NCBI GenBank assembly: GCA_900298995.1
Contig: OMIC01000008.1
Span: 1 to 64,000, forward strand
Origin: Hyphomicrobiaceae bacterium
GTDB taxonomy: Bacteria > Pseudomonadota > Alphaproteobacteria > Rhizobiales > Aestuariivirgaceae
Direction: 5' to 3'
DNA length: 64,000 bases
This document shows, piece by piece, positions 5,150 to 26,168 of this stretch. The notes under the pieces are model-generated. The model made no database searches. It was not told where the DNA came from and worked only from the letters and a program-made list of their open reading frames with translations. Numbering within the stretch: position 1 is the stretch's first letter; every line of letters starts with the position of its first letter. The position numbers were made by a program, and so were the translations under genes.

Positions 5150-6916
5150 ATGAAAGCCAAGGCGAGGCGAAAGCCGAACGTCGATCCCATCACACTTTCC
5201 GTCGTGCGCGGCATGCTGGAAACAACCCAGCGCGAAATGACGCTGGCACTGGAAAAGACGGCGCGCTCCTCCGTCTTCAACCTGGCGCATGACTATTCAA
5301 CAGCCCTCTTCAATGCCAGGCCTGAGATGATCCTGCAGGGGCAGGATATCCCGATCCACTTGGGATCGCTGATTCCCGCCATGAAGTCGGTCGCAAAGTT
5401 CTTTGATGGCGACATTCATGAGGGTGACCTGATCCTTCACAACGATCCGGCCTTTGGCGGCAGTCATGCCATCGACACCTGCATGTACAAGCCGGTTTTC
5501 TACCGGGGCAAGCTGGTCTACTGGACGGTGTGCAAAGGCCACCTTACGGATATCGGAGGCCCTGTCCCCGCAGGCTACAACCCCAACGCCAAGGAGATAT
5601 ACGCCGAGTGCCTTCGCATTCCGCCCGTCAAGATCTGGGACAAGGGCAAGCCACGCCACGATGTCATCAACATGATTCTCACCAACATGCGTGCACGGCG
5701 TGACCAGGAAGGGGACTTCAACGCCCTGATCGGCGCCTGCCAGGTGGGTGAACGCAACCTGATCGCCATGCTCGACAAATACGGTCAGAAGACCGTCGAT
5801 GCCTGTATCAACGAGTTGCTCGATCTGGCTGACCGCCACATGCGTTCGCTCATCAAATCGGTGCCTGACGGCAACTATGAGGGTGTTGCCATTCTCGAGG
5901 ATGCAGGTCACGGGTTCGGTGATTTCGAAATCAAGGCGAGCGTCACCATCAAGGGTGACAAATGTCACATCGCGATTTCCTCACCGCCGCAGATTCCCTA
6001 TTTCATCAATTCCTACGAGGGGAATTCGCACTCCGGCGTCTATCTCGGACTCATGATGTTCGCAGCACTGCCGCCTCCTTACAATGAAGGTCTCTATCGC
6101 TGCGTCTCCGTTGACTTCGGGCCCAAGGGCACCATCTGCAATGCCCAGGAACCGGCGCCGCACATGAACTGCACGACAACGCCAATGGAAACCCTGACGG
6201 ACGCGGTGCGCCTTGCCTTCGAGAAGGCAATGCCGTCCAAGGTGGCGGCAAGTTGGGGACATGCGAATGGCCTCAACATTGCCGGTTGGGATTCGCGCAC
6301 CAATGAGGAATTTGTCACCATGGTACTGGCCACCATTATTTCCGGTGGAGGCGCCACGCCCAAGCAGGATGGCTGGCATGCGGTGGGTCCTGAATGCTGC
6401 TTCGGCGCACTCACCTCGGGCGACGTCGAACTGCTCGAGTATTCCTACCCGATCATCATCCATAAGTATTCCTTGATGACCGACTCTGGAGGTGCAGGCA
6501 AATTTCGGGGTGGGTCGGGAACAGCCTGGGAGGTTGAGCCGCTCGACAAGGACATGCTGTGCATTGGCTTCGGCGAGGGACGGCGCATCCCGGCAATGGG
6601 CGCTGCGGGCGCCAGCTCGAGGGATATCGATTCCAAGGTTGGGCGCGTCGAGTTGAAGCGTTCCGGCAAGGTGGATTTGAAACGCACCAACATCATGGAA
6701 ACCATCAAGCCAGGCGAGACTGTTACCAACATGAATCCCGGTGGGGGCGGCTATGGAAACCCATATGAGCGGCCGCTCGACAAGGTGGTTTGGGACGTGA
6801 AGAACGGCCTCGTGTCCATTCGTGGCGCACGGGAAGACTATGGGGTGGTGTTCTCTGATCCGGAAACGCTGGAAGTCGACATGGCTGCGACGCAGCGGCT
6901 CCGGTCGGCTGCCTGA
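5150..6916 (+). CDS. Hydantoinase B/oxoprolinase family protein
   Basis: The 588-residue protein is a member of the HyuB family, which pairs with HyuA in ATP-dependent hydantoinases, 5-oxoprolinase, caprolactamase and acetone/acetophenone carboxylases. It starts with the family feature DPITLSVVRGMLETTQREM. It also contains ILHNDPAFGGSHAIDTCM, DVINMILTNMRARR and the C-terminal MNPGGGGYGNP. Start 5150 is chosen because TTGGGGAGTAAC precedes it; the frame is open to 5102 without a ribosome binding site. It is separated from hyuA by 21 bases. The pair normally activates a carbonyl by phosphorylation (HyuA) and opens the ring or carboxylates it (HyuB). Which member substrate applies cannot be decided here. 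Confidence 0.9.
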   Translation: MKAKARRKPNVDPITLSVVRGMLETTQREMTLALEKTARSSVFNLAHDYSTALFNARPEMILQGQDIPIHLGSLIPAMKSVAKFFDGDIHEGDLILHNDPAFGGSHAIDTCMYKPVFYRGKLVYWTVCKGHLTDIGGPVPAGYNPNAKEIYAECLRIPPVKIWDKGKPRHDVINMILTNMRARRDQEGDFNALIGACQVGERNLIAMLDKYGQKTVDACINELLDLADRHMRSLIKSVPDGNYEGVAILEDAGHGFGDFEIKASVTIKGDKCHIAISSPPQIPYFINSYEGNSHSGVYLGLMMFAALPPPYNEGLYRCVSVDFGPKGTICNAQEPAPHMNCTTTPMETLTDAVRLAFEKAMPSKVAASWGHANGLNIAGWDSRTNEEFVTMVLATIISGGGATPKQDGWHAVGPECCFGALTSGDVELLEYSYPIIIHKYSLMTDSGGAGKFRGGSGTAWEVEPLDKDMLCIGFGEGRRIPAMGAAGASSRDIDSKVGRVELKRSGKVDLKRTNIMETIKPGETVTNMNPGGGGYGNPYERPLDKVVWDVKNGLVSIRGAREDYGVVFSDPETLEVDMAATQRLRSAA

Positions 6917-6937: not shown

Positions 6938-9022
6938 ATGCGCACCAAATATCGCCTTGGCATCGACGCGGGCGGCACCTTCACCGACTTCGTCGTGGCA
7001 AACCGGCAAACCGGCGAGGTCAAGCTTTTCAAGGCTTTGTCAACGCCCTCTGACCCGACCAAGGCCATTCAGAACGGGTTGAAACTCATTTCTGATGACC
7101 TCGCGATCAGTCCGCGCGAACTCGTCTCCGACTGTGACCTGTGCATCAACGGCACAACCGTCGGTCTCAATGCCCTCATCACGCACAGGGGTGGCAGGAC
7201 GGGCCTGATCTGCACCGCGGGACACGAGGATTCGATCGAGATCCGCAACGGCCACAAGGAAGACGGTTTTCGTTACGATCCCGAGTATCCTGCAGCGACC
7301 ATGCTTGTTCCGCGTTACCTCCGCAAAGGTGTGCGTGAACGAGTCATCTCCGACGGTTCAATCCGCCTCGCGATGGAGGAGGAGGATGTGCGCAGTGCCT
7401 GCGAACTCTTCCGCAAGGAAGGGATCGAGACCATCGCCATCTCCTTTGTCTGGTCGGTGTTGAACCCGGCGCATGAGCACCGCGCTGCCGAGATCGTTCG
7501 CAAGATGATGCCGGATGCGATTCTCACGGTGGGCTCGGAGCTTTATCCGCAGGTGCGCGAATACACTCGGACGTCGACGGCGGTCACCAATGCCTATCTT
7601 GCTCCCGTCATCCGCAAGTATGTGGCGGCGGTTGACAGTTATTTCCGCTCGCTGGGGGCGAGGCAGCCGGTGCGCTACTTCCAGTCGAACGGCGGCCTGG
7701 CCATCGGCCAGGCGATGACCGACCGCTCTGTCTACGCCATCAACTCTGGTCCTGCGTCGGCTCCGCAGGCGGGCCTCTATGTCTGCGCGCCTTTCAAGAA
7801 GAAGAACGTTATCACGGTGGACATGGGGGGCACCTCCTTTGACATGACCCTGACCAAGGACGGCCAGACCAACCTGAACAAGAATATCGATTTCCTGCGC
7901 TACCGGATCGGCGTGCCCATGATCCAGGTGGAAACACTGGGGGCAGGCGGTGGCTCGATCGGCTGGATCGATTCGCTGGGCCTGATACAGGTCGGCCCCC
8001 AGTCAGCAGGTTCGGAACCTGGACCAGCCTGCTACGGCCAGGGCGGTCTCGAGCCCACCACATCGGATGCCAACCTCGTCCTTGGCTATCTGAACCCCGA
8101 AGGTCTGCTCGGAGGAAAGCTTCCGCTGGACCTGGGCAAGGCAAGAGCAGCCATCAAGGCCAGGGTTGCCGACCCGCTTGGCATATCCATCGAGCGCGCC
8201 GCCTACGGCATGTACACCATTGTCAACAACAACATGGTGAATGGCATCCGGCGCGTCTCGGTCGAGCGTGGTTACGATCCGCGCGACTTTGTGCTGGTCG
8301 GTGCCGGCGGCGCGACCGCCGCGCACATCACGGCGCTTGCCCGCGAGATGGGTATCGAAACGATCATCCTGCCGAAGCTTGCCTCGGGGCTCTGCGCCTT
8401 CGGCCAGATCATCTCGGACGTCAAGTACAACTACATGGCAACTGCCCCGGTACGGCTTGACAACGCCGCAGCCTACAGGCGGATCGACAAGCTGTTTGGT
8501 CAAATCGAGGCTGAGGGCGTGAAGCATCTCAAGACAGATGGCTTCAAGCAGTCGCAGATTGACATCAAGCGCAGCCTCGACATGCGCTATGTCGGCCAGG
8601 TTCATGAATGCACCGTCGACATTGGCACTTTCCCGATCAATGACAAGACCATCGAGAAAGTGAAGGAAGCCTTCCATCGCCGCCACGAAGAACTCTACAC
8701 ATATTCGGAGCGCCATAATGCGGTGGAAGTGGTAAACCTCGAATCGACCCTCTACGGCCGCATCGACAAGCCAAAGGCCCCGAAGCTCGCCAGGGGTGCG
8801 CCCGCGGCCAAGGCCCTGAAGGGTTACCGCAAGGCAGTCTTTGACCCGTCCGGACGGCCAGCCAGGACTCCGATCTATGACGGCGCCAAACTGGGTGCCG
8901 GGGCGACTGTCAGAGGCCCCGCCATCATCGAGGAGGTGACGACCACCATCGTCATCGAGCCGGGCTGGACTGCGCGTCTTGATGCCAGCGGCTCCTATGT
9001 CATGACCTACCGGAAGCGCTAA
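6938..9022 (+). CDS. Hydantoinase/oxoprolinase family protein, ATPase subunit
   Basis: The 694-residue protein is full length for HyuA. The N terminus RLGIDAGGTFTDFVV is the phosphate-1 loop of the ASKHA (actin/hexokinase-like) ATPase fold. The second nucleotide-binding motif is ITVDMGGTSFDMTL, followed by VETLGAGGGSIGWID and GPQSAGSEPGPACYG, all standard in this family. The C-terminal part ends with the usual beta-rich domain containing GPAIIEEVTTTIVIEPGW. It phosphorylates the substrate carbonyl using ATP so that HyuB can cleave it. It directly follows hyuB. The ribosome binding site is GGGGAAGGA. The downstream genes encode a binding-protein paralogue and a regulator that probably sense the same compound. 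Confidence 0.92.
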   Translation: MRTKYRLGIDAGGTFTDFVVANRQTGEVKLFKALSTPSDPTKAIQNGLKLISDDLAISPRELVSDCDLCINGTTVGLNALITHRGGRTGLICTAGHEDSIEIRNGHKEDGFRYDPEYPAATMLVPRYLRKGVRERVISDGSIRLAMEEEDVRSACELFRKEGIETIAISFVWSVLNPAHEHRAAEIVRKMMPDAILTVGSELYPQVREYTRTSTAVTNAYLAPVIRKYVAAVDSYFRSLGARQPVRYFQSNGGLAIGQAMTDRSVYAINSGPASAPQAGLYVCAPFKKKNVITVDMGGTSFDMTLTKDGQTNLNKNIDFLRYRIGVPMIQVETLGAGGGSIGWIDSLGLIQVGPQSAGSEPGPACYGQGGLEPTTSDANLVLGYLNPEGLLGGKLPLDLGKARAAIKARVADPLGISIERAAYGMYTIVNNNMVNGIRRVSVERGYDPRDFVLVGAGGATAAHITALAREMGIETIILPKLASGLCAFGQIISDVKYNYMATAPVRLDNAAAYRRIDKLFGQIEAEGVKHLKTDGFKQSQIDIKRSLDMRYVGQVHECTVDIGTFPINDKTIEKVKEAFHRRHEELYTYSERHNAVEVVNLESTLYGRIDKPKAPKLARGAPAAKALKGYRKAVFDPSGRPARTPIYDGAKLGAGATVRGPAIIEEVTTTIVIEPGWTARLDASGSYVMTYRKR

Positions 9023-9125: not shown

Positions 9126-10334
9126 ATGACGGCGCCGGCCGTCGTGCCGCGGCGCACGCTGCGAGTGCTTGGCACGAGCATAACGTTGCTTGAGCTTATT
9201 CGGCGTCGCGCAGAATCTGATCTTGGCTTTGCTATCTCCTTTGAGGTTCACAACTTCGTCGACTGCCAGCGGCGTGCCGCTTTGGAGCCGGCCGCCTATG
9301 ACATCTATGACCAGTGTTTTCATAACATGGACATTGTCTGGTTCTGGGGTTCGTTGCAGCCGGTCGATACCTTTCGCATCACCGACTGGGATATGCTGAG
9401 CGGGCTGACCCGTGAGGGCGGTATCAACCGCTATGCCTCGCGCGGGCATGGCGACCAGCCCGTGCGCAAACTCTACGTCCAGCCGGGCGAGGCCCTGGGC
9501 CCGGCGCCATCGCGCTACATCAGCATGCTGCCGACGGTGCATAACTTCGACTCCTTCGGTTATGACCCCCGGGTATTTGGCGCCGTGGGTCCGCACCGGG
9601 AAAGCTGGTCATGGTTGCTCGACCCGCGTGCCCGCGGTCGGATCGCGGTGGTGGACGAACCCGGCATCGGCATCTTTGACGTGGCACTTGCGGCGGAAGC
9701 CGCCGGTGAGGTGAAATTTGCCGATATTGGCAACATGACTGTGGAGGAGATCGACTCACTGATGAGAGTTCTCCACCAGCACCGCCAGCAGGGCTATTTC
9801 CGGGCGATCTGGCGTGACGGGGAGGAGGCGGCGAACCTTGTGCGCAATGGTCAGGTTGCAGCCCAGAGCATGTGGTCGCCTGTCTATGGAGAGCTCGGCG
9901 AGACAGCGCAGCATTTCGTGGAGGCCAATCCAATCGAGGGCTGGCGTGCCTGGCACGGCGGCATGAGCCTGGCGCGTCATCTCTCAGGCGCCGCTCTTGA
10001 TATGGGTTATGAATACATGAACTGGTGGCTGTCTGGTTGGCCGGGTGCGGTCGTGGCACGGCAGGGATATTACATGTCCGTGCTGGACCGCGTCCGGGAG
10101 GCATTGTCACCTGCTGAATGGCGGTACTGGTATGAGGGTTTGCCCGCCGAGGTGGACCTTCCCGGCCCCTCGGGCAATATCGTGGTGAAGGCGGGCGCGC
10201 GCAGAACCGGTGGCTCATACTGGGACCGTGCCAGCCGCATCGCGGTGTGGAACACGGCCATGGACGAGCACAACTATGCCTGCCGGGCCTGGGAAAGATT
10301 CGTGCGGCAGGTACGGGGCGAGGCGTCATCATGA
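9126..10334 (+). CDS. Signal-less ABC solute-binding-protein paralogue (putative cytosolic ligand-binding protein)
   Basis: This protein of about 403 residues aligns by eye along most of its length with the Tat-exported binding protein at 15880-17109. Paired segments are LPTVHNFDSFGY with VPTVYNYDSIGY, FRAIWRDGEEAANLVRNGQV with FRALWGDFGELVNLLASGEM, NWWLSGWPGAVVARQGYY with DYWLSGPPAITVSEQGYY, and YWYEGLPA with FWYEGKPW. Unlike that protein it has no hydrophobic or twin-arginine signal: similarity begins almost at the N terminus (RRTLRVLGTSITL). The start is uncertain; 9057 (GTG), 9096 and 9102 are alternatives, and 9126 follows GGAG at a spacing of 11. It overlaps the GntR gene by 4 bases. 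A role as an intracellular ligand sensor or buffer is inferred. Confidence 0.75.
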   Translation: MTAPAVVPRRTLRVLGTSITLLELIRRRAESDLGFAISFEVHNFVDCQRRAALEPAAYDIYDQCFHNMDIVWFWGSLQPVDTFRITDWDMLSGLTREGGINRYASRGHGDQPVRKLYVQPGEALGPAPSRYISMLPTVHNFDSFGYDPRVFGAVGPHRESWSWLLDPRARGRIAVVDEPGIGIFDVALAAEAAGEVKFADIGNMTVEEIDSLMRVLHQHRQQGYFRAIWRDGEEAANLVRNGQVAAQSMWSPVYGELGETAQHFVEANPIEGWRAWHGGMSLARHLSGAALDMGYEYMNWWLSGWPGAVVARQGYYMSVLDRVREALSPAEWRYWYEGLPAEVDLPGPSGNIVVKAGARRTGGSYWDRASRIAVWNTAMDEHNYACRAWERFVRQVRGEASS

Positions 10335-11314
10335 ACGCCCGTTCTCCGCAGCCGCCGATGCAGAAGCGCTACGAACTGATCGCAGGTGTGCTCCGGCTCA
10401 ACATCACGACTGGGAAACTCCCGGCGGGTTTCGTTCTCGTTGAAGGGCCGATTGCTGAGCTCATGCAGTCGAGCCGCGCCCCGGTGCAGGCGGCTCTGCG
10501 CATTCTCGAAGGTGAAAACCTCATCCACCGCTTTGCTGGGCGTGGCTTCCTCGTGGGACCAAAGGGATCAGGTGTGCCGCCGATCCGCCAGGGCATTCGT
10601 GACCTCGATCTGCAGATTTCCGTCGAGATCGACGAGGCGCTCCAGAGCCGCGGAACCTGGGAGTTGGTGTATGATCGGGTGGAGGAGCAGGTGGCGTCCT
10701 GCCTGATCTTCGGTGAGTTTCGGATCGTCGAAACAGAACTTGGCGACTATTTGGGGGTCAGCCGCACCGTGGTGCGGGATGTGCTGAGCCGTCTTCACGA
10801 GCGCGGCCTGATCCGCAAGAATCAGAGCTCGCACTGGATTGCAGGACCGCTCACGGCGCAGATGATTCGCGAGAAACTGGCGGTGCGGGCCATACTGGAG
10901 CCTGCGGCGCTGCGACTGGCAGGAGCCGCAATCAATTACACCGAAGTCGAGACCCTGCGGGTGCGACTTGCTGCGGGTGAGGAAATCGAAGGCGAGATCC
11001 TCGAAGCTGCCCTCATGGAGCATTGCATCGCCCGCACGCCCAATCGCGAACTCGTCGGACTCATTGGTAATAATCAATTGCTTCTGACTGCAGCGAACCG
11101 GGCGCTCACCGGTCTAGGCTTGCCGCGTGACCGGGTCGAACACGGCGAATACCGAACCCTCTTCGACCTTCTCTCCCGCCATCTCGTTGATTCTGCTGCT
11201 GAGTATCTCGAGGGCCGGTTGCGGATCCTGGCAGAAAAGAGCCTTGCCCGCCTGAAGATCGTGGCAATCATCACCCAGCCATCCGACATTGCGCCTTTTT
11301 TGACGCCGAAATAA
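10331..11314 (+). CDS. GntR-type regulator with two winged-helix domains and an FCD domain
   Basis: The 327-residue protein is longer than typical FCD-type GntR regulators (220-250 residues). Residues 14-76 read as one GntR winged helix (LRLNITTGKLPAGF, then SSRAPVQAALRILEGENLI and GRGFLVG). Residues 112-172 read as a second one (YDRVEEQVASCLIFGEFRI, then GVSRTVVRDVLSRLHERGLI). Residues 175-300 form the helical FCD effector domain, beginning MIREKLAVRAILEPAALRLA. The start overlaps the upstream binding-protein paralogue by 4 bases (ATGA), so the two are translationally coupled. It probably controls the surrounding catabolic and transport genes. The tandem DNA-binding architecture is seen in sequence; its function is not known. 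Confidence 0.85.
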   Translation: MNARSPQPPMQKRYELIAGVLRLNITTGKLPAGFVLVEGPIAELMQSSRAPVQAALRILEGENLIHRFAGRGFLVGPKGSGVPPIRQGIRDLDLQISVEIDEALQSRGTWELVYDRVEEQVASCLIFGEFRIVETELGDYLGVSRTVVRDVLSRLHERGLIRKNQSSHWIAGPLTAQMIREKLAVRAILEPAALRLAGAAINYTEVETLRVRLAAGEEIEGEILEAALMEHCIARTPNRELVGLIGNNQLLLTAANRALTGLGLPRDRVEHGEYRTLFDLLSRHLVDSAAEYLEGRLRILAEKSLARLKIVAIITQPSDIAPFLTPK

Positions 11315-11401: not shown

Positions 11402-11539
11402 GTGGTTGCATACGTTAGACAGTTTTGATTACATCCTTCGAAGATCAATGCTCCATGGGAAATCTGATTGTTCCATGTTGCGTAATGGTAACTTGTACGG
11501 GGAGAAAGGCTGCGGAAAGATCGGCGGAGAACCGTCACC
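11402..11539 (+). promoter_or_regulatory. AT-rich promoter region upstream of the ABC importer operon
   Basis: Between the GntR stop and the ATPase start lie 225 bases that are clearly more AT-rich than the flanking genes. This part of the gap contains no credible open frame and is the only sizeable non-coding stretch within the 23-kb + strand cluster, so it probably carries the promoter and operator for the transporter and downstream catabolic genes. Just 5' of the terminator-like repeat, 11317-11341 also holds a short AAATG/CATTT dyad. No exact -35/-10 pair was convincing. Confidence 0.35.
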
Positions 11540-12625
11540 GTGGCGCAGGGCATGAACAGTCAGCAACCGGTATTCCGCCTTGAGGGCGTGAGCAAGTCTT
11601 ACGGATCTGTCACTGCGTTGCGCGACATCACGCTCAGCGTGAATGGCAATGAGTATATTTCCGTTCTTGGGCCGAGCGGCTCTGGCAAGTCAGTTCTGCT
11701 TAGGGTGATTGCGGGCTTTGACGTGCCGGACAGCGGTCGGGTGGTGCTTGAGGGCCGCGATATCACGGATGTGCCCGCTCATGAGCGTGGTATCGGTTTC
11801 GTTTTCCAGAATTTCGCGCTGTTTCCGCACCTGACGGTGTTTGAGAATGTCGCCTTTGGCCTGCGAAACGGCAAGGTGCCCGTTGCTGCGCCGGATGTTG
11901 AGCAGCGCGTCAAGGACATGATTTCGCTAGTTGGTCTCGCGGGCATGGAGGGCCGGGGTGTGCACCAGATCTCCGGCGGACAGAAGCAGCGCGTCGCACT
12001 GGCGCGCACTCTTGTCATGGCTCCTCGCCTTGTCCTGCTGGACGAACCTCTGGGCGCTCTTGATGCCAATCTGCGCCACCGTATGCGCAATGAACTGCGC
12101 GCGATCCGCGAAAAGCTCGGCGTGACGTTCATGCACGTGACCGGAAGCGAAACCGAGGCCCTTGCCATGGGCGACCGGGTTGTGGTCCTCGATCATGGCC
12201 GCATCGCGCAGTTTGCCAGGCCCGACCAGGTTTACGGTCAGCCGGCATCGCCGAGTGTTGCGCACTTCCTGAACCGCTACAACATCTTCGAAGGCGAATT
12301 GTCGGGGAAGCGCTTCACCGGTCCATTTGGAATGATCGACGCTGCCAGCGTGACCCCTGCCGATAAGCCTGCCTGCGCGATCCGTTATGACCGCATGAAG
12401 GTGGAAGAGGAAGGAACTCCAGGCGAGGGTCCGGCAATTTCCGCCAGCTTCGTGGCCAGTGAATATCTCGGGTCCTCCGTCATGTACTTCTTCGAGGCCG
12501 CGGATGGCCGCGTGATTGAGGTCGAGCATCACCTGAGCCTTGGCCAGCCGCAGAGCTTCGAGCCCAAGCGTCGCTACAGGCTGCGGTGGAAACCCGAAGA
12601 TGCAATAGTTTTTGGGCGGGGATGA
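11540..12625 (+). CDS. ABC transporter ATP-binding protein, polyamine type, with altered H-loop
   Basis: The 361-residue protein is a PotA-like ATPase. Walker A is GPSGSGKS (residues 44-51), the Q-loop is FVFQNFALFPH, the signature is ISGGQKQRVALAR and Walker B is RLVLLDEPLGALD. A C-terminal TOBE-like domain fills roughly residues 250-360. The switch histidine of the H-loop, normally in VTHD, is replaced by glycine (VTGSETEAL, Gly202, codon 12143-12145). The other ATPases in the window keep the His. The start is GTG 11540 or ATG 11552. The gene heads an operon with two permeases, two dehydrogenases and a binding protein. A second ATPase of the same operon lies at 17183. The altered H-loop predicts impaired or asymmetric hydrolysis. 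Confidence 0.88.
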   Translation: MAQGMNSQQPVFRLEGVSKSYGSVTALRDITLSVNGNEYISVLGPSGSGKSVLLRVIAGFDVPDSGRVVLEGRDITDVPAHERGIGFVFQNFALFPHLTVFENVAFGLRNGKVPVAAPDVEQRVKDMISLVGLAGMEGRGVHQISGGQKQRVALARTLVMAPRLVLLDEPLGALDANLRHRMRNELRAIREKLGVTFMHVTGSETEALAMGDRVVVLDHGRIAQFARPDQVYGQPASPSVAHFLNRYNIFEGELSGKRFTGPFGMIDAASVTPADKPACAIRYDRMKVEEEGTPGEGPAISASFVASEYLGSSVMYFFEAADGRVIEVEHHLSLGQPQSFEPKRRYRLRWKPEDAIVFGRG

Positions 12626-12631: not shown

Positions 12632-13513
12632 ATGAGTGGCACGGCTGTCAGGCAGGCGCCTCAACAGAAAAGTAGATCTTCCGCGCCCTGGCTCATCGCG
12701 CCGGGTGTGCTGTGGATGCTGGTGTTTCTGGTGACCCCGATCCTGCTTATCGTCTACGTCTCGTTCTGGACGCAGACGACCTTCAAGATTGAACCGACAC
12801 TGACACTGCAGAGCTGGCAGGCCTTTTTCGGCTCCGACACCTATCTGAACTCGTTGTGGACCACCGTCCGCATATGGCTCATCGTTCTCGCATCCACTTT
12901 CATCATCGGCTATCCAACCGCGCTGTTCGTCGGCCTGTTCGTCAAGAACAAAACGCTCTCGACTGTGCTTCTTGTCATCTGCGTCATACCTTTCTGGACG
13001 TCCTTCCTGATCCGCGTCCTGGCCTGGCGGCCGATGCTGGGCAAGGAAGGCGCCATCAACATTCTGCTCCAGAAGTTCGGCATCATCAGTCAGCCAATCG
13101 AAGCCCTGCTGTTCACCGAACTCTCCGTCATCATCGGAATGACGCAGATCTATGTGGTGTTCATGGTTGGCCCGATTGCCTTCATGTTGGGACGCATAGA
13201 CCCGAACATCATCGAGGCGGCGCGAGACCTTGGCGCGGGGTTTGGCCGTATCTTCTGGAAGATCATCTTTCCGCTGAGCCTGCCGGGTGTTGTTGTCGGC
13301 GCCATTTTCGTGAGCGTCATGGTATTGGGAGAATTCGCCACCGCGGCCGCACTGTCCGGACGCAAGGTGAATCTTCTGGGGAACATCATCGTTACCCAGG
13401 TAGGCTCGCTCAAGTGGGCTCTTGCTTCCGTGGTGGGTGTGATCCTGACGATCGTGATGGGTCTGGTGATCGCCGGATTTCTCCGTATCGTCGATCTGAA
13501 GCGGGAGCTTTGA
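12632..13513 (+). CDS. ABC transporter permease, polyamine type (PotB-like)
   Basis: The 293-residue protein has about six hydrophobic segments, beginning with LIAPGVLWMLVFLVTPILLI near residue 25. The cytoplasmic EAA loop is IIEAARDLGAGFGRIFWKII, which docks on the ATPase. This matches the first permease of spermidine/putrescine-type importers. It starts 6 bases after the ATPase gene and ends 4 bases before the second permease. The transported compound is unknown. Proximity to the hydantoinase/oxoprolinase genes suggests that the substrate feeds that pathway. Confidence 0.88.
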   Translation: MSGTAVRQAPQQKSRSSAPWLIAPGVLWMLVFLVTPILLIVYVSFWTQTTFKIEPTLTLQSWQAFFGSDTYLNSLWTTVRIWLIVLASTFIIGYPTALFVGLFVKNKTLSTVLLVICVIPFWTSFLIRVLAWRPMLGKEGAINILLQKFGIISQPIEALLFTELSVIIGMTQIYVVFMVGPIAFMLGRIDPNIIEAARDLGAGFGRIFWKIIFPLSLPGVVVGAIFVSVMVLGEFATAAALSGRKVNLLGNIIVTQVGSLKWALASVVGVILTIVMGLVIAGFLRIVDLKREL

Positions 13514-13517: not shown

Positions 13518-14369
13518 ATGGAATCCCGCGTCCTGAAGCCGGTGCTGGCGGTCTACACGCTGCTCTTCATCCTGTTCCTCTACGCTCCGTTCTTTGTGCT
13601 GGCGATCCTCTCGTTCCAGAGCGGTCCAGAGGGTGGGCCGCAGTTTCCGATCATCGAATGGTCTACCTATTGGTACCGTCATATCTTCGGCATGGTGCCG
13701 CCGTCCCGTGTTGCCCCGCTGCCACTGGGCGAGGCGCTCTTCCGTTCTCTCACCCTGGCCTTCATGACGATGGTCACGTCCACGGTTCTGGGCGTCATGT
13801 CGGCTCAGGCTTTCCGCCGCAAGTTCAAGGGCTCCGGCTTAGCCTTCTATCTCATCGTTCTGGGCATGATGGTTCCGGGCGTGCTGACCGGTCTCGGTGT
13901 GTCTCTGCTCGCCAACAACATACTCGGAATCGAAAGACATTGGTGGAGCACGGGTTTCGTTACCCACGTGGTCTACACCTTCCCCTTTGCGTTCCTCGTC
14001 ATGCTGGCGATCCTCAACCGGTTCGACGCTTCGGTGGAAGAGGCGTCCTGGTCTCTTGGCGTGTCCCCCGCGAGAACCTTCAGGAAGGTCACGTTCCCGC
14101 TTATTTTCCCAGGCGTGCTCTCGGCCATGCTCTTCGCCTTCACGCTGTCCTACGACGAGTTTTCGCGTACGCTCTTTGCCTCTGGCCGTGACCAGACTTT
14201 GCCACTGGCGATCTACGGCACCTTCTCGGTCGAGATCCATCCCAACGTCTTCGCCTTCGGCGTGCTGACAACGGTGTTCTCGTTCGCGTTGCTCTCCGTC
14301 TATGCGATCCTCATGACTCTCAGCGTCCGCCGCGCCAAGAAAGTGGCGATGCAGGAGGATATCGCATGA
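13518..14369 (+). CDS. ABC transporter permease, polyamine type (PotC-like)
   Basis: The 283-residue protein is the second membrane subunit of the importer. It has about six membrane spans starting with VLAVYTLLFILFLYAPFFVL. The EAA-type loop is VEEASWSLGVSPARTFRKVT. The PotC-like order (ATPase, permease 1, permease 2) is kept. The stop overlaps the start of the following short-chain dehydrogenase by 4 bases (ATGA), so transport and oxidation genes are translationally coupled. Confidence 0.88.
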   Translation: MESRVLKPVLAVYTLLFILFLYAPFFVLAILSFQSGPEGGPQFPIIEWSTYWYRHIFGMVPPSRVAPLPLGEALFRSLTLAFMTMVTSTVLGVMSAQAFRRKFKGSGLAFYLIVLGMMVPGVLTGLGVSLLANNILGIERHWWSTGFVTHVVYTFPFAFLVMLAILNRFDASVEEASWSLGVSPARTFRKVTFPLIFPGVLSAMLFAFTLSYDEFSRTLFASGRDQTLPLAIYGTFSVEIHPNVFAFGVLTTVFSFALLSVYAILMTLSVRRAKKVAMQEDIA

Positions 14370-15088
14370 GAACGGCGATCATCACCGGCGCTGGTTCAGG
14401 TATCGGGCGTGCCATCGCGGTGCGGCTCGCGGCTGACGGATACAATGTCGTGGTGAATGACTTTCGCGCCGAGGCTGCAGATCAGGTGGCGCGGGAGATC
14501 GGTGCAAAGGCAATTTCCGTGCAGGGTGACGTATTGAGTGAGGCGGATGTCGCGCGCATCGCAAGCGCCTGTGAAAGGGCTTTCGGCCGCTGCACTCATC
14601 TCGTCAATAATGCAGGCCATGTGCATCAGGCCCGGTTCACCGATCTTGAGCCCGCTGACTTCGATCGCATGTTCGCCGTGCATGTGCGCGGCACCTACCT
14701 CTGCACGCGCGCTGTGTTGCCCGGCATGCTGGCGGCCGGCGAGGGCGTCATAACCAACATCGCCTCGCAACTGGGTCAGATTGGCGGGGTGGATCTCGCT
14801 CACTATTCCGCTGCCAAGGCGGCCATCATCGGCATGACAAAGGCGCTGTCACGGGAAGTCAGCGCCCAGGGTGTGCGCGTCAATGCGGTGGCGCCCGGCC
14901 CGATCAACACCCCGCTCGTCATGGCCCTTTCGGACGGCTGGCGCAAGGCGAAGGCCGCGGGCTTGCCGCTCGGCCGTTTCGGCGAGCCGGAAGAGGTTGC
15001 TGCAACAGTTGCCTTTCTGTGCTCGCCCGCCGCTTCGCTCTTCGTGGGGCAGACCCTGGGTCCCAATTCAGGAGATGTAATGTTATGA
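14366..15088 (+). CDS. Short-chain dehydrogenase/reductase (FabG-like)
   Basis: The 240-residue protein is a classical SDR. The nucleotide-binding motif TGAGSGIGRA is at residues 7-16, NNAG follows near residue 88, and the catalytic region has the Ser in TNIASQLGQ and the Tyr-Lys pair in HYSAAKAA. The C-terminal GPNSGDVML replaces the usual VDGG. It is inserted between ABC permease and binding-protein genes, with 4-base overlaps on both sides. It probably oxidises or reduces an alcohol/ketone arising from the imported compound. Substrate and cofactor preference are not determined; acidic Asp in VVVNDF after strand two hints at NAD(H). Confidence 0.88.
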   Translation: MRTAIITGAGSGIGRAIAVRLAADGYNVVVNDFRAEAADQVAREIGAKAISVQGDVLSEADVARIASACERAFGRCTHLVNNAGHVHQARFTDLEPADFDRMFAVHVRGTYLCTRAVLPGMLAAGEGVITNIASQLGQIGGVDLAHYSAAKAAIIGMTKALSREVSAQGVRVNAVAPGPINTPLVMALSDGWRKAKAAGLPLGRFGEPEEVAATVAFLCSPAASLFVGQTLGPNSGDVML

Positions 15089-15837
15089 CAGAGACCGTCC
15101 TCATCACAGGTGCGGGTATCGGTATTGGTCGCGCGTCTGCCAGGGCCTTCGCCAAGTCGGGCTATCACGTCGTTGTCACCGACATCCTGGAAAACGAAGG
15201 CTCCGCAGTCGTGTCCGAGATAGTTTCCGCTGGGGGCTCGGCGGAATTCATGAAGCTCGATGTGCGATCGACTGAACAAGCCGATGCCGTGGTGGCTGCG
15301 GTCGAGAAGAGGCACGGAGCAATCAACACCGTGGTCGCCAATGCCGGAATTGCACACAAGGTGCCGTTGCCGCAACTGACCGACGAGAAGTGGGACTTCA
15401 CCTTCGACATCGACCTCAAAGGCATCTTCCGCGTGGTACGCGCAGCGCTGCCGGCCATGAAGATGGCGAGGAAGGGCTCGGTCGTCGCTGTCTCATCGAT
15501 CATGGGCGTTGCGTACGGCTGGGACGAGCATGTGCATTATTCCTCGGCCAAGGCCGGGGTTGTGGGGCTTGTGCGCGGGCTTGCAGTGGAACTTGCGCGT
15601 GACGGCATTCGCGTCAATGGCATAGCGCCCGGCTATATCCGCACGGCGCAGTTGCTCTCCAAGGAGCATTCGCTGGGGCCAGAAGCCGACAAGGCCGGAC
15701 AATTCATTCCCATGGGCCGCATCGGCGAGCCTGAAGACATTGCAGACGTGATCCTGTTCCTTGCTTCCAACGCCGCTCGCTACATGACGGGGCAAACGGT
15801 GGTGGTAGATGGTGGCCTGCTCGTCGGCCGTTACTGA
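15085..15837 (+). CDS. Short-chain dehydrogenase/reductase (FabG-like), second copy
   Basis: The 250-residue SDR carries TGAGIGIGRA at the N terminus, NAGIAHKV, the catalytic Ser in VAVSSIMG, the YSSAK-type motif in HVHYSSAKAG, and the C-terminal GQTVVVDGG. Asp in VVVTDI after the second strand suggests NAD(H). It starts at 15085, overlapping the previous SDR by 4 bases; a longer in-frame reading upstream would lie entirely within that gene. The pair is similar in architecture but clearly diverged, suggesting two separate steps or a two-subunit enzyme. The binding-protein gene follows after 42 bases. Confidence 0.9.
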   Translation: MTETVLITGAGIGIGRASARAFAKSGYHVVVTDILENEGSAVVSEIVSAGGSAEFMKLDVRSTEQADAVVAAVEKRHGAINTVVANAGIAHKVPLPQLTDEKWDFTFDIDLKGIFRVVRAALPAMKMARKGSVVAVSSIMGVAYGWDEHVHYSSAKAGVVGLVRGLAVELARDGIRVNGIAPGYIRTAQLLSKEHSLGPEADKAGQFIPMGRIGEPEDIADVILFLASNAARYMTGQTVVVDGGLLVGRY

Positions 15838-15879: not shown

Positions 15880-17109
15880 ATGAATCACTACAACCTCAAT
15901 CGCCGCCGGTTCCTGCAGGGAACGGCGGGTGGCCTTGCGGTCGCGGCGGGCGCTGTGCCCTTCGCTCCGTTCGGGTCGCAACAGGCCTTCGCGGCCGGTC
16001 TCGCTGACCAGGAACTCCGCACCGTCGGCCTGTCGGTCACGGTGCAGGAGCGTATCCTGAACGACTTCAAGGAGAAGTCCGGCGTGAAGGCGGTGTCGGG
16101 CAAGGCCGACATCTTCCCCAATACCCAGACCGAACTGCTCTCGGGCTCCACAGCCTATGACTGCTGGGAAACCATCGGTGAGCGCCTGCCTGCGGTCATT
16201 GCCACAGAGAAGATCCAGGCAATTCCGACGGCGTCGCTCAAGAACTGGGCCAACATCCGCGATACCTTCACCAAGGGTTCGGACAAGTGGGACAGGAAGG
16301 CTCAGATCGTTGGCCAGATCTGGAAGGATGAAGGACAGACCGAACTGTGGATGGTCCCGACCGTCTACAACTACGACTCGATCGGATATCGTCCGGACCT
16401 CGTCTCGGCTGAGGAAGCCTCGACCTGGACCGCGCTGTTCGACCCCAAGTTCAAGGGCAAGACCGGTCTCAATGTCGATCCGCTCATTGCGTTCGGTCAG
16501 GCTGTGCTGGCGATGAATTCGCTGGGACTTCTGCAGGTTCCGAATCCGGGCAATCCGGACAAGGCGGCCATCGACGAGGCCTCGAAGTTCCTGATCTCCA
16601 AGAAGAAGGAAGGCCAGTTCCGCGCCCTCTGGGGCGACTTCGGTGAACTCGTGAACCTGCTCGCTTCGGGCGAAATGGTGCTGGCGGACGCCTGGCAGCC
16701 TGCCGTCATGGCAGTGAAGGCGCAGGGCGTACAGTGTTCCTATGCGACGGTGAAGGAAGGTTACCGTGGCTGGGCGATTGGCGTGTCTGCCATCACCGGG
16801 ACACCAAACCTCGAGGCCGTGACGGCTTATGCCGACTACTGGCTGTCTGGTCCGCCGGCCATCACCGTGTCGGAGCAGGGCTACTATTCGCCGACCACGA
16901 ACATCAAGGACGTGATGCCGGCCGACAAGTACGCCTTCTGGTATGAGGGCAAGCCTTGGGTTGGCCCGCCCGATCGTGGCATCAAGGAAGGCGACCTCCG
17001 TGACGGCGGATCTCTCGAGACCCGCGCCGCGAACGTTGCCTACTGGCATCAGTGGCCGGACGAGTACGACCACCTCATGCAGAAGTGGGACGAATTCCTC
17101 TCGGCTTGA
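15880..17109 (+). CDS. ABC transporter substrate-binding protein, Tat-exported, PotD-like
   Basis: The 409-residue protein starts with a twin-arginine signal: RRRFLQGTAGG followed by a hydrophobic stretch and the cleavage-type site AFAAG near residue 40. The rest has the layout of spermidine/putrescine-type periplasmic binding proteins (VPTVYNYDSIGYRPDLV in the middle, ADYWLSGPPA near the C terminus). GAGGAGACTAGCCT precedes the ATG. It follows two SDR genes and precedes a hairpin and a second ATPase gene. It shares extended similarity with the signal-less protein at 9126-10334. It would capture the substrate of the 11540-18289 importer in the periplasm. Confidence 0.9.
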   Translation: MNHYNLNRRRFLQGTAGGLAVAAGAVPFAPFGSQQAFAAGLADQELRTVGLSVTVQERILNDFKEKSGVKAVSGKADIFPNTQTELLSGSTAYDCWETIGERLPAVIATEKIQAIPTASLKNWANIRDTFTKGSDKWDRKAQIVGQIWKDEGQTELWMVPTVYNYDSIGYRPDLVSAEEASTWTALFDPKFKGKTGLNVDPLIAFGQAVLAMNSLGLLQVPNPGNPDKAAIDEASKFLISKKKEGQFRALWGDFGELVNLLASGEMVLADAWQPAVMAVKAQGVQCSYATVKEGYRGWAIGVSAITGTPNLEAVTAYADYWLSGPPAITVSEQGYYSPTTNIKDVMPADKYAFWYEGKPWVGPPDRGIKEGDLRDGGSLETRAANVAYWHQWPDEYDHLMQKWDEFLSA

Positions 17110-17182: not shown

Positions 17183-18289
17183 GTGGCTTACGACCTGCAG
17201 CTTTCTCACGTCGGCAAGGTGTATGACAACGGCACCGCCGCCGTCATCGACTTCAACCTCGATGTCGACAGGGGCGAGTTCATTGCCTTCCTGGGTCCAT
17301 CGGGCTGCGGCAAGACAACAACACTGCGCATGATCGCGGGCTTCGAAGACATCAGCTCGGGTGACATTCTGATCCGTGGAAAGCGGATCAACGACTTGCT
17401 GCCCGAACGGCGGCCAACTTCGATGATCTTTCAGAATTACGCACTGTTTCCACACATGACGGTGCGAGCCAATGTTGGCTTCGGGCTCGAGGTCAAGGGC
17501 ACGCCGACCGCTGAGCGCGATGCAAAGGTGACGCGCATCCTCGAAAAGCTTGATCTGCTGAACGTTGCCGACCTGCGCCCCGACAGGCTGTCGGGTGGTC
17601 AGCGCCAGCGTATTGCTCTTGCCCGCTCGCTGGTTGTTGAGCCAGATATCCTGCTGCTCGACGAGCCGCTTGGTGCGCTTGACGCCAATCTTCGCAAGAG
17701 TATCTAGAACGAACTGAAGCTTCTCCAGCGGTCGCTCGGCATAACTTTTGTTTTCGTGACGCATGCGCAGTCGGAAGCTCTCGCGCTCTCCGATCGCATC
17801 GTCGTGATGAACCAGGGCAGGGTGGAGCAAATCAGTGCTCCTTATGAACTTTACACCCGCCCACAGAGCCTCTTCGTTGCCCAGTTCATTGGCCGCAACA
17901 CGCTGATCGCGGGCGTGGTGAAGTCTTGCAGTGACGGTACCGCCACGCTCGATACACCGTTTGGGCAGCTTGCTGGCGCGACTGTGAAGCCGCTCGCTGT
18001 CGGCGCCACGTCCAGCCTTGTGCTTCCGGCAGAGTCCATCGATGTTGTTGCTGGCGGTGAAGGCATGGTCGAAGCCCGGACGCATTACTCCGGCTGTGTC
18101 ATCCCGGTTGCCATCACCCGTTTGCAGCAGGTCGGTCATCTCGTGCAGATGGCTGTGTCCCTTCCCAATGGTGACCAGGTGCAACTCGAAGGCCATGCTG
18201 ACAAGTATGGCGGACGTTTTGCCAGCGGCGAAAATGCCTGCATCGCCTGGAAGCCGCAGGGTGCAACGGTGATATCCCATCAGGGCTGA
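17183..18289 (+). pseudogene. ABC transporter ATP-binding protein interrupted by one in-frame amber codon
   Basis: Read through a single TAG at 17705-17707, this is a complete PotA-like ATPase of 368 residues. Walker A GPSGCGKT, Q-loop IFQNYALFPH, signature LSGGQRQRIALAR and Walker B ILLLDEPLGALD precede the stop. The H-loop [10 protein letters not shown] and a TOBE domain follow in the same frame. The stop falls in NLRKSI-stop-NELKLLQ, where relatives normally have a Gln or similar, so CAG to TAG is the simplest origin. No frameshift is present and both halves look conserved. The start is GTG 17183. It could be a recent nonsense mutation, a sequencing error or a suppressed codon. The upstream fragment lacks the H-loop. 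Confidence 0.75.
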
Positions 18290-18294: not shown

Positions 18295-19647
18295 ATGAGC
18301 AACAGGTCAGCGGCCGAATTGGCTAGAAAGCTTCGCAAGGGTCAGGCCGATGCGGTGGATGTGGCGGAGGAAGCCTTTGCCCGTATCGAGGCAGTCGGCG
18401 ATCCCGCGATCTTTGTTGAAACGCTCAGGCCGCGGGCCATGGCGGAAGCCCGTGCCGCGCGCAAGCGGCTGAAGGCGGGAACGCCGGCCAGCCTTCTCGA
18501 TGGCGTGCCCGTTGCCTGGAAGGATCTGTTCGATCTGGAACGCCGGGTCACGACTGCGGGATCGGTGGTGCTCAGGTCTGCACCGGCAGCGAGCCGCGAT
18601 GCGGCTCTGGTCGCCGCCGGAAAGGCCGCGGGTCTCGTCAGCATCGGCTGTCTCAACATGACCGAGTTCGCCTATTCGGGGATCGGACTCAATCCTCATT
18701 ACGGCACGCCCCGGAACCCGAACGACAGGCTGGTCCATCGCTCCCCCGGGGGGTCCTCCTCTGCGAGCGGGGGGGTTGTTGCTGCAGGCATCGTGCCGAT
18801 CTCGATCGGCACTGACACGGGAGGTTCGATCCGGATTCCCGCTTCCTTCAACGGCGTCGTTGGCTACAAGAGCTCGACGGGCCATTATCCGATGGCAGGG
18901 GTCTTCCCGCTGTCAAGGACACTCGACACGCTGGGCCCGCTCGCCAACAGCGTCGAGGACTGTGTGCTGGCTGATGCCGTACTCCGTGGCCTGAAGAGGC
19001 CGCAGGCCAGGGCCAGGGATCCGAAGGGTCTGCGGATAATCGTCCCGGAAACATTGGTCTTCGATGATGCGGAAGACGCGGTTGTCCAGAATTTTGAGGG
19101 CTCTCTCCAGCGTCTTCGGCGGGCCGGAGCGAAGATCCGCCGAGTGAAGATGCCGGTGTTTCAACACATTCTCGACCTGGTGGCGGCCCGCGGCCACATA
19201 CTGGGCGCTGAGGCGCTGGCCGTGCATTGGAGCCGGGTGAAAGGCGCGGACGCCGCACGAATGGATGCGCGCGTGGTGAAGCGCATCCTGCTGGCAGAAA
19301 AAATGACGGCTGTGGATCTGGTCGTGGTGATGGAAGAGCGCAAGCGCATGATAGCCGAGGCGGAGGCAATCCTTGATGGCGCGCTCCTTGCCTATCCGAC
19401 CACCCCACATGTAGCCATGCCCATAGCGCCGCTCGAGGCGGATCAAGACGTATTCTTCCGTAACAACGCCAGGACGCTGCGCAACACCATGCTCGGAAAC
19501 TTCCTCGACTGGTGCGGGGTGTCGATACCGAACGGAACCGATGCGGCGGGGATGCCGACCGGCTTTCTGTTGTCGGCTGCGCATGGTCAGGACATGGATC
19601 TGCTCTCGGCCGCGCTCGGAACCGAGGAAATCATCAGGGGATCATGA
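18295..19647 (+). CDS. Amidase (amidase-signature family)
   Basis: The 450-residue protein carries the full Ser-cisSer-Lys machinery of the amidase signature family. Lys76 is in VAWKDLF, the cis-Ser is about Ser154 in the PGGSSSASGG loop, and the nucleophile Ser178 is in GTDTGGSIRIPA. Length and layout suit GatA-like amidases and allophanate hydrolase-type enzymes, but no glutamyl-tRNA context is present. It starts 5 bases after the interrupted ATPase gene and overlaps the following oxidoreductase. It presumably hydrolyses a linear amide or carbamoyl compound made by ring opening upstream. Together with the carboxylase genes the set resembles a dispersed urea-amidolyase, which is speculative. 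Confidence 0.88.
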   Translation: MSNRSAAELARKLRKGQADAVDVAEEAFARIEAVGDPAIFVETLRPRAMAEARAARKRLKAGTPASLLDGVPVAWKDLFDLERRVTTAGSVVLRSAPAASRDAALVAAGKAAGLVSIGCLNMTEFAYSGIGLNPHYGTPRNPNDRLVHRSPGGSSSASGGVVAAGIVPISIGTDTGGSIRIPASFNGVVGYKSSTGHYPMAGVFPLSRTLDTLGPLANSVEDCVLADAVLRGLKRPQARARDPKGLRIIVPETLVFDDAEDAVVQNFEGSLQRLRRAGAKIRRVKMPVFQHILDLVAARGHILGAEALAVHWSRVKGADAARMDARVVKRILLAEKMTAVDLVVVMEERKRMIAEAEAILDGALLAYPTTPHVAMPIAPLEADQDVFFRNNARTLRNTMLGNFLDWCGVSIPNGTDAAGMPTGFLLSAAHGQDMDLLSAALGTEEIIRGS

Positions 19648-20881: not shown

Positions 20882-21784
20882 ATGGCAAAAAAGATTATGT
20901 GTGCCTTCGGAACAGACATTGATTCAGTCGCTGGCTGGATCGGATCTTATGGAGGTGGCGACTCGCCATCAGACATCCAGCGCGGGATCTTCGCCACCGA
21001 AGTGGGCGTGCCCCGCCTTCTGACGCTCTTCAAGCGTTATGGCCTCAAGACCAGCTTCTTCATCCCCGGCCATTCGCTTGAAACCTTCCCCAAGCAGATG
21101 GAGATGATCGTGAAGGACGGCCACGAGGTTGGCGCCCACGGCTATCTGCACGAGAACCCGATCGCCATGACCCCCACTCAGGAAGAGGACGTCCTGGTAA
21201 AGTCGGTTGAACTCATCAAGAATCTGACCGGTCAGTCACCGCGTGGTTATGTGGCGCCCTGGTGGGAAATGTCGAACTCAACTGCTGCTCTGTTGCTCAA
21301 GCATGGTTTCAAGTATGACCACAGCCAGGGGTACCGCGACTTCCAGCCCTTCTATGCCCGCGTCGGTGACAGTTGGAATACCATTGACTACTCGAAGTCC
21401 GCCAAGGACTGGATGCATCCCCTGAAGCACGGTAAGGAGATTGATCTCGTCGACATCGCTGCGAACTGGTATGTCGATGACCTGCCTCCGATGATGTTCA
21501 TGAAAAAGTCGCCCAACAGCCATGGCTTTGTGAACCCGCGCGATATCGAGGAACTCTGGCGCGATCAGTTCGACTGGGTATACCGTGAGATGGATTATGC
21601 AGTTTTCGCATTCACGATCCATCCGGATGTCGCAGGCCGTCCGCAGGTTTTGCTGATGCTCGAGCGTCTCATCGAGTACATCTCCAAACATGCGGGCGTT
21701 GAGTGGGCGACCTTCGAGGACATCGTTGCCGACTTCCGCAAGCGCTATCCGTTTGAGAGTGGCAAGCGGCCGGAAGTGATCTGA
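20882..21784 (+). CDS. Polysaccharide-deacetylase-fold hydrolase (PuuE/cyclic-imidase-like)
   Basis: The 300-residue protein has the NodB-type deacetylase fold. The first metal motif is altered to GTDIDS (Asp12, Asp14), and the metal-binding histidines are in [10 protein letters not shown] (His81, His86, His90). [10 protein letters not shown] and [20 protein letters not shown] are typical of the PuuE/HpPgdA-like branch. That branch includes allantoin-type and cyclic imide hydrolases as well as deacetylases. There is no signal peptide, so it is cytosolic and not a wall-modifying enzyme. In a cluster with hydantoinase/oxoprolinase genes, cyclic amide or imide ring opening is the more likely activity. 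AAAGGAGCAGAAC precedes the ATG. Confidence 0.82.
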
Positions 21785-21854: not shown

Positions 21855-22148
21855 ATGTGCTCAGCCTGTGGATTTCCCGCTGCTCCCGGCCATTGGACCG
21901 AAGCCGGAGCACCTACCGCACACGATCGTCTGCGCAGCCGTATGCGGCGCGCCGAGGTTCTTCAGGCGGTTCTCCCCTTCTATGGTCTCAAGGCCTATGG
22001 TGGCGGCGAGGTGCCGGGAATTCAGATTTCCGCACTGTCCGGGGGAGAGTCGATCTTGCGGGACCTCGACGAGGTCTGGGCGCTGGCTGAAAAGATGAGC
22101 GGAGGTCCGGTCGACCCGCTGGATCCGCGTTTCATCGGTGATGAATGA
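21855..22148 (+). CDS. Small CxxCG-motif protein of unknown function
   Basis: The 97-residue protein begins MCSACGFPAAPGHWTEAG, a compact Cys-x2-Cys-Gly motif followed by a conserved-looking PGHW segment. The rest is soluble and mixed helix/coil, ending DPLDPRFIGDE. I recognise no named family. Its stop overlaps the COG0523 GTPase start (ATGA), so the two are almost certainly made together. A role as metal-binding client, donor or partner of that metallochaperone-like GTPase is inferred. The frame is open further upstream to 21795, but the CxxC start at 21855 is the more natural one. Confidence 0.7.
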   Translation: MCSACGFPAAPGHWTEAGAPTAHDRLRSRMRRAEVLQAVLPFYGLKAYGGGEVPGIQISALSGGESILRDLDEVWALAEKMSGGPVDPLDPRFIGDE

Positions 22149-26052: not shown

Positions 26053-26062
26053 CTGCTCCCGG

Positions 26063-26143
26063 CGTCACCCCGGCCAGGGCCGGGGTGCAGCTTCGTGTGT
26101 TCGTCATGCAGACAGATGATCCTGGCTCTCGCCGGGATGACGG
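26063..26143. repeat. Mosaic palindromic repeat between binding-protein and permease genes
   Basis: Two hairpins sit side by side. The first is CACCCCGGC/GCCGGGGTG (26066-26074 and 26079-26087, perfect 9-bp stem). The second is around 26119-26139 (ATCCTGGC/GCCGGGAT, one wobble). The outer arms CGTCACCCCGGC and GCCGGGATGACG also pair with each other. This pattern resembles the short intergenic palindromes (REP/RIME-like) common in Rhizobiales. In the transcript it could stabilise the binding-protein message or reduce read-through into the permeases. Confidence 0.65.
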
Positions 26144-26168
26144 CCTCGAGGGTCGGCGTTACACCGCT

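Follow-up and report, generated by a model that had tools for sequence, protein, structure and literature searches.

A solute-binding protein gene without an export signal and its probable sensory link to a neighbouring GntR-type regulator

What does a solute-binding protein do if it carries no export signal and its gene overlaps that of a DNA-binding regulator? The question is raised by a locus in a 64,000-nucleotide stretch of the Hyphomicrobiaceae bacterium assembly GCA_900298995.1 (contig OMIC01000008.1, positions 1 to 64,000; hereafter the window), in which such a gene, cSBP, and the regulator gene GntR2 lie ahead of an importer operon with a Tat-exported binding protein of its own, tSBP (Table 1). 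A sequence-only reading of the window had proposed that cSBP is a retained paralogue of tSBP, sensing the same ligand inside the cell or carrying it as a co-inducer.

Table 1. Coordinates of the cSBP gene and of the surrounding features in the window
Feature	Position	Strand	Basis or remark
capB-like	5150–6916	+	NCBIfam caprolactamase beta, above cut-off
capA-like	6938–9022	+	NCBIfam caprolactamase alpha, above cut-off
cSBP, solute-binding protein of 402 aa lacking a signal peptide	9126–10334	+	ATG 9096 is a possible alternative start
GntR2, double-winged-helix regulator whose C-terminus is FCD-like but degenerate	10331–11314	+	Pfam, model, ATGA overlap with cSBP
Candidate operator/promoter element GTTGCATACGTTAGACAGTTTT	11405–11426	+	Inferred; 5′ of transporter operon
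ATP1, ABC ATPase, PotA-like	11540–12625	+	
perm1, ABC permease	12632–13513	+	
perm2, ABC permease	13518–14369	+	
SDR1 dehydrogenase	14366–15088	+	
SDR2 dehydrogenase	15085–15837	+	
tSBP, Tat-exported solute-binding protein of importer	15880–17109	+	
ATP2, second ABC ATPase	17189–18289	+	In-frame stop in window sequence
Amidase	18295–19647	+	
Polysaccharide-deacetylase family protein	20882–21784	+	PuuE-like below cut-off
hyp110, small conserved protein	21855–22148	+	31% identity to rhizobial one
CobW/COG0523 GTPase	22145–23107	+	

A binding-protein fold without an export signal

The cSBP reading frame runs from ATG 9126 to a stop at 10332–10334, and the coordinates and frame given in the sequence-only reading are correct. 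Further in-frame starts lie 5′ of this ATG (GTG 9057, ATG 9096, ATG 9102 and GTG 9123), among which ATG 9096 may be the true one, going by the N-termini of orthologues. The product aligns along its length with tSBP, as had been claimed (BLASTP, 27% identity over 386 columns, 139 bits, E = 1e-41), with the aligned blocks LPTVHNFDSFGY/VPTVYNYDSIGY, NWWLSGWPG/DYWLSGPPA and YWYEGLPA/FWYEGKPW, and the two proteins are the sole matches at E ≤ 0.001 in the window's own genome. An AlphaFold2 model of cSBP (mean pLDDT 91.5) has the two-lobe binding-protein fold, with its first strand from residue 11. The best structural matches of the model are PotF, YdcS and PotD, and the best PDB profile matches are YdcS, PotF and PotD. 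Pfam gave no match for the window protein, and SBP_bac_8 or SBP_bac_6 matched some of its relatives; an enzyme-family match for cSBP and its relatives, sought in Pfam and NCBIfam, was not found. As modelled, cSBP keeps an intact binding-protein fold, and sequence and model together describe a complete fold that lacks an export signal.

The absence of a signal peptide, also part of the sequence-only reading, holds for every in-frame upstream start of the window gene when judged by eye. Scanning 84,980 species genomes returned 454 relatives, and the best 80 of these (55–74% identity) were kept, all of them signal-less; this status applies to the 80 and not to the 454 as a whole. A convincing signal was likewise sought by eye in 85 cSBP upstream frames, three genomes being represented twice (L035/L047, L036/L066 and L037/L067), and none was found. 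The upstream frames of the window gene and its relatives rule out a signal supplied from an upstream start. In a crude automatic scan of upstream frames, Tat-like stretches were flagged for 68 of 80 tSBPs, 28 of 37 ABC-linked and 17 of 17 kinase-linked relatives but for 5 of 105 cSBPs, where the twin arginine always lies 5′ of the first methionine shown. Its other criterion, a hydrophobic 12-mer, flagged three further cSBPs out of the 105, together with 23 of 80 tSBPs, 14 of 37 ABC-linked and 9 of 17 kinase-linked proteins. The open frame ahead of the mature core spans at most 25 aa in 26 of the 105 cSBPs. Cytosolic retention of cSBP as a clade-wide trait is supported by this comparison of sequences. 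Some cSBP genes are annotated 'extracellular solute-binding protein'; if our reading is true, their products are cytosolic sensors.

Phylogenetic analysis places the change in export once. Of the 78 proteins in a first tree, the 32 without a signal all cluster as a single group (SH-aLRT 100). A second tree, enlarged by 17 closer exported relatives, again unites its 35 signal-less proteins (SH-aLRT 87) and makes them sister to those 17 (99). Both groups are nested within the ABC-linked exported proteins, tSBP forms the outgroup, and the export-signal trait changes once on both trees, which are quick searches with long branches for L230, L232, L234, L264, L265 and L266. The cSBPs are 27–29% identical to tSBPs, compared with 31–41% to other exported proteins. 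Because cSBP is nearer to other Tat-exported proteins than to its neighbour, it is not a tSBP copy that lost its signal; the trees and identities rule out a recent duplicate of tSBP, and the label 'paralogue' fails in that sense.

The 17 Tat-exported sisters (L270–L286) come from other classes of the phylum. A histidine-kinase homologue was found by BLAST beside 16 of them, one at only 26% identity, and at the seventeenth locus the start of a membrane protein stands at the kinase position; three of the adjacent kinases, checked by Pfam, are HAMP-HisKA-HATPase-receiver hybrids. A kinase-linked exported branch next to a GntR-linked cytosolic branch suggests one sensory clade within the importer family. 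In their own right, the 17 are a possible binding-protein/kinase sensory family.

Gene company across locus types

In the window, an ATGA at 10331–10334 is common to the end of cSBP and the start of GntR2, and the coupling of a binding-protein gene to a regulator gene reported for this DNA stands. Several other features of the stretch were recorded. The in-frame stop of ATP2 lies about 180 residues into the gene, to which related loci have long matches; it may reflect a genuine loss or a fault of the assembly. The hyp110 product (also at 8606–8938 of L032) is about 100–110 aa long and starts MCSxCG...HW, and its longer frame had no match in Pfam or NCBIfam; the hyp110 and CobW families are both present at 35 of 36 type II and 8 of 8 type V loci (types defined below), and hyp110 is a possible metal client or partner. 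Next to the locus, at 23301–27371 on the minus strand, lies a second ABC operon with its own binding protein, twin-arginine-like by eye.

The company of cSBP varies between loci. Type I, the window type, reads cSBP–GntR2–ATP1–permease–permease–SDR–SDR–tSBP–ATP2–amidase–deacetylase; capA lies close by on the upstream side in 23 of the 45 loci fetched. In the rhizobial type II, GntR2 is divergent from ATP1–permease–permease–SDR–SDR–tSBP–ATP2–deacetylase–hyp–CobW–cSBP–amidase; cSBP follows CobW and is coupled to it, not to GntR, and GntR2 is about 11 kb away. Type III has GntR2 and cSBP tail-to-tail with the importer adjoining. At type IV loci, a GntR2–cSBP pair adjoins other systems: hydantoinase A/B (4 of 6 loci), other ABC systems with their own binding proteins (some annotated, one recognized by eye) and, at the Agrobacterium locus L230, genes for an aspartate/glutamate-racemase-family protein and a Zn hydrolase. 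Type V has an MFS carrier in place of the ABC importer, in Acidiphilium, Paraburkholderia, Pantoea, Klebsiella, Halomonas (where the carrier was recognized by comparison with Pantoea) and three further genomes, and no permease or exported protein of the importer system was detected within about 10 kb. In Aminobacter, cSBP and GntR2 are divergently oriented and adjoin a BMP-type ABC system. The Methylocapsa locus reads GntR2–amidase–deacetylase–hyp–CobW–cSBP; it has ATP1 as a fragment only and neither permease nor SDR genes. A reduced importer without cSBP lies elsewhere in that genome (L209). This importer and those of L208 and L210 read ATP1–permease–permease–tSBP–ATP2, without cSBP, GntR2 or the SDR pair, distant SDR homologues following a few kilobases on in L209; each has two ATPase genes for one permease pair and tSBP.

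GntR2 was found near cSBP at 46 of 46 type I, 3 of 3 type III, 6 of 6 type IV and 8 of 8 type V loci and at the single Aminobacter and Methylocapsa loci. The count for type II, 7 of 36, is low since the two genes are some 11 kb apart and the flanks mostly end at 10 kb; plasmid records were therefore taken in their stead. Among controls, GntR2 was found at none of 10 ABC-linked loci, which are those with long flanks among 37 (L232 not being one of them), and at none of the 17 loci of kinase-linked exported sisters. Some of the homology queries came from loci that were scored (L204, L227, L230, L231, L233, L234 and L236), and the GntR2 of these loci was also found with queries from other loci. 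For plasmids, we paired the best 60 of 139 records with cSBP with 60 of 69 records with GntR2, and GntR2 lies at most 11.2 kb from cSBP in 53 of the 60. The remaining seven are five Klebsiella records outside the 60 GntR2 records (one that was fetched has GntR2) and two Rhizobium records without GntR2 in the stretch read; conversely, seven of the 60 GntR2 records listed have no cSBP among the 60 cSBP records listed. An order-wide draw of 397 genomes included 13 with a GntR2 at 50% identity or more, and each of these also has a cSBP at 55% or more. A fourteenth cSBP genome, G717, carries its 55% copy close to the end of a contig and has no close GntR2. Of the 18 genomes of this draw that have tSBP, 16 have cSBP. 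GntR2-like proteins at 31–37% identity often occur there without cSBP, so the regulator family as such does not need it.

The arrangement of the pair also varies. GntR2 directly follows cSBP in all 45 fetched type I loci, and when the GntR2 start nearest to a 4-base overlap is chosen, the two genes overlap in 44 of these, in 43 by 4 bases. Elsewhere GntR2 precedes cSBP, adjacent or overlapping (reversed, with overlapping frames, in L226), or the genes lie tail-to-tail or divergent. Coupling to the regulator therefore describes the window and type I but is not a universal trait, as the rhizobial cSBP adjoins CobW with GntR about 11 kb off. Two rhizobial genomes are exceptions to the linkage itself: Rhizobium sp. 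SU303 (L262) keeps cSBP with no GntR2 found in the 17 kb read, and Rhizobium RCAM05350 keeps it with none found in 24 kb. The stretch read from SU303 also lacks ATP1 and both permeases, and has a long SDR frame and PxpA and LysR genes. Apart from these two, and with the genes about 11 kb apart in type II, a conserved regulator gene accompanies cSBP. As judged from gene neighbourhoods, GntR2 is the steadiest partner of cSBP while the other neighbours change between locus types.

Two other assignments were rejected. As a steady partner, CobW is ruled out by the 5 of 6 type IV and 2 of 3 type III loci at which it was not found, and the MFS loci together with the importers without cSBP rule out a subunit of the transporter. 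Compared with the binding protein of an ABC importer, cSBP lacks, by its sequence, the export signal and, at type V and Methylocapsa loci, the permease and ATPase neighbours. Separately, ABC-linked Tat binding proteins that are 38–40% identical to cSBP adjoin deacetylase, hyp110 and CobW genes at L229 and L232, and L232 holds both an exported ABC-linked protein and a cSBP–GntR2 pair.

The regulator, the pocket and the role of cSBP

Pfam recognized two GntR winged helices in the window GntR2 and detected no FCD domain. In the model (pLDDT 85.4, pTM 0.62), the helical C-terminal part resembles FCD structures, and the FCD-type regulators VanR Atu1419 and Tm0439 are among the best Foldseek matches. 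FCD scored above the Pfam cut-off in five of six other regulators scanned (the sixth, L118, reached 22.8 against 24.3 bits) and in L227, and GntR2 can be placed in the FCD family by its winged helices and FCD domain. The window protein departs from that family at the metal site: M, Y and R occupy the columns of the three histidines (H1–H3), which we take to be metal ligands. H1 is absent from 46 of 46 type I and 5 of 5 type II regulators; in type I, H2 is a tyrosine in 45 of 46 and H3 is kept in 41 of 46. The full histidine set is kept in 4 of 4 type III, 4 of 5 type IV and 4 of 5 type V regulators. For types I and II, this loss fits dependence of the regulator on a sensor outside itself, but replacement of the FCD sensor by cSBP would not be general, because several regulators with an intact FCD also have cSBP.

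An element resembling 11405–11426 is present in all 46 type I GntR2–ATP1 intergenic regions, all scoring above 8 (26.8 in the window; 99.9th percentile of shuffled sequence, 13.9) in a model trained on the same 46 loci. At 14 other loci, seven beat the best of 40 shuffles of their own, and three of four type III loci did not. A search for inverted repeats near promoters gave nothing decisive.

We compared pocket positions by aligning cSBP with PotF and taking PotF mutation numbers from PDB titles, so these are positions in sequence rather than coordinates. H66, N67 and S248 of cSBP align with PotF pocket residues; H66 is kept in 105 of 105 cSBPs and N67 and S248 in most, and the N-lobe residues H66, Y61 and Q63 are near invariant across the clade. 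In tSBP, the same pocket positions hold E, R and D in all 79 aligned. Because these residues differ, a ligand common to cSBP and tSBP, as the sequence-only reading had assumed, is not supported. The ligand of cSBP could as well be an intermediate of the pathway or a chemically distinct form as the compound bound by tSBP. The capAB-like genes, whose caprolactamase family is described in excerpts of PMC8453981, point to a cyclic amide as the pathway substrate.

Taken together, these data make it probable that cSBP acts in the cytosol as a ligand-sensing subunit of GntR2, its double-winged-helix neighbour, because GntR2 stays while other neighbours change and because the exported sisters adjoin histidine kinases. 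The proposal that a retained binding protein serves as an intracellular sensor is in this way upheld for retention and, through neighbourhoods and trees, for a regulatory role with GntR, but not for the shared ligand. An imported compound or an early breakdown product would close the two lobes of cSBP, and the free and loaded forms would differ in their effect on GntR2 binding at the promoter of the transporter or catabolic operon. Such a scheme presupposes physical contact between cSBP and GntR2, binding of a ligand by cSBP, a direction of control and use of the 11405–11426 element, all of which we infer. At window-type loci, where the FCD-like domain would have lost its usual metal or effector site, sensing may have passed to cSBP.

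Catabolic genes recur around cSBP, leaving room for an enzymatic role, and enzymes have evolved from binding proteins in other lineages. A cytosolic pathway enzyme of such descent, linked to GntR2 only through a shared substrate, would fit the recurrence of SDR, deacetylase, amidase, CobW or hydantoinase A/B genes, the near-invariant H66, Y61 and Q63 of the N-lobe and the coupling of rhizobial cSBP to CobW instead of GntR. We consider it unlikely, however: no single enzyme gene is common to all locus types, whereas GntR2 is (SU303 and RCAM05350 excepted), the closest exported relatives adjoin kinases and so point to sensing, and no enzyme family matched. The intact fold, the conserved pocket residues and the position beside CobW or amidase in type II could also belong to a cytosolic carrier or buffer that keeps an imported substrate or a reactive intermediate for the enzymes, but the steady linkage to GntR2, in both gene orders and with overlapping frames, would then go unexplained, and we regard such a role as quite improbable.

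Tat moves folded proteins, tSBP has a Tat signal and both proteins are encoded in one locus in types I–III; cSBP might then leave the cell bound to tSBP, as a second periplasmic receptor without a signal of its own. This route is very unlikely: tSBP is missing from the neighbourhood of cSBP at the type IV, type V and Methylocapsa loci, and some importer loci do without cSBP. Loss of the signal is also the usual first step of decay, and a functionless remnant could have been kept by chance beside the regulator. Nine cSBP members nevertheless share a mean column identity of 75%, and the best 80 of 454 relatives remain signal-less at 55–74% identity with H66 in every one of the 105 cSBPs; we find a remnant scarcely credible.

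Relation to known sensory binding proteins

Searches of open-licence PMC articles for a cytosolic solute-binding protein of this sort or for this gene set returned nothing relevant, and no report on the Rhizobium 3841 genes, looked up under guessed old locus names, was found; the excerpts of PMC7689651 that were returned say 'cytoplasmic' of ordinary ABC proteins only. We know of no earlier cytosolic binding-protein sensor with a DNA-binding (GntR) partner. The receptor–regulator pair, its exported kinase-linked sisters and the transporter-swapping loci offer a natural series for the question of how a transport protein becomes a signalling protein, and the pair might serve as a practical readout for lactam, hydantoin or cyclic-imide type catabolic clusters of unassigned substrate.

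Stand-alone cytosolic sensors with a binding-protein fold are a known kind, given the precedents of NasS–NasT and AmiC–AmiR. According to excerpts of PMC3795266, NasS of Paracoccus denitrificans is an NrtA-like nitrate-binding protein without a signal sequence, predicted to be cytoplasmic, which binds the ANTAR protein NasT in a complex that nitrate or nitrite takes apart; the same excerpts name AmiC–AmiR as a parallel. As in cSBP–GntR2, a stand-alone signal-less fold related to a periplasmic transporter protein (NrtA) is encoded with an adjoining regulator (PMC3795266, in excerpt). In the Pseudomonas aeruginosa amidase operon, AmiC is the binding-protein partner of a regulator of amide catabolism in a ligand-responsive complex, and a survey of binding proteins that cites AmiC–AmiR counts cytosolic single-domain proteins with other functions among them (excerpts of PMC3795266 and PMC9602780, the latter being the survey).

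The differences lie in both partners. NasS is NrtA-like and NasT an ANTAR RNA-binding antiterminator, whereas cSBP is PotF/YdcS-like and its partner a GntR-type DNA-binding protein. AmiC has a type I, Leu/Ile/Val-binding-protein-like fold and AmiR is an ANTAR protein; GntR2 has GntR winged helices, and Pfam found no ANTAR domain in it or in the regulators of other members. Judged by Pfam and PDB profile matches, cSBP falls outside the AmiC (Peripla_BP) and NasS/NrtA (NMT1-like) families. The regulator shares with VanR Atu1419 and Tm0439 a winged helix and an FCD-like helical domain, but has two winged-helix domains and, in types I and II, has lost the metal-site histidines. Periplasmic binding proteins that activate sensor kinases are, in excerpts of PMC11113362, encoded beside their signalling partner, as cSBP is, and its sister clade looks like that kind; those proteins work outside the membrane, whereas cSBP has no export signal and a DNA-binding partner.

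The sequence-only reading had called such a use of a binding protein unusual outside fusions with kinases or regulators. As a general statement this has to be narrowed in view of the published stand-alone case of NasS–NasT and its parallel AmiC–AmiR (excerpts of PMC3795266), while the lineage and the GntR partner look new. What appears new here is the PotF-like lineage, the DNA-binding GntR partner, the breadth of occurrence and the exported kinase-linked sisters. More tentatively, at somewhat short of an even chance, cSBP represents a third independent lineage of stand-alone cytosolic sensors, in which a PotF-like ancestor gave rise to one sensory clade of exported kinase receptors and signal-less GntR2 receptors, and in which the window-type receptor replaces a decayed effector domain. 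By analogy, cSBP most likely works in the way of AmiC–AmiR and NasS–NasT, from a different binding-protein lineage and with a partner that binds DNA.
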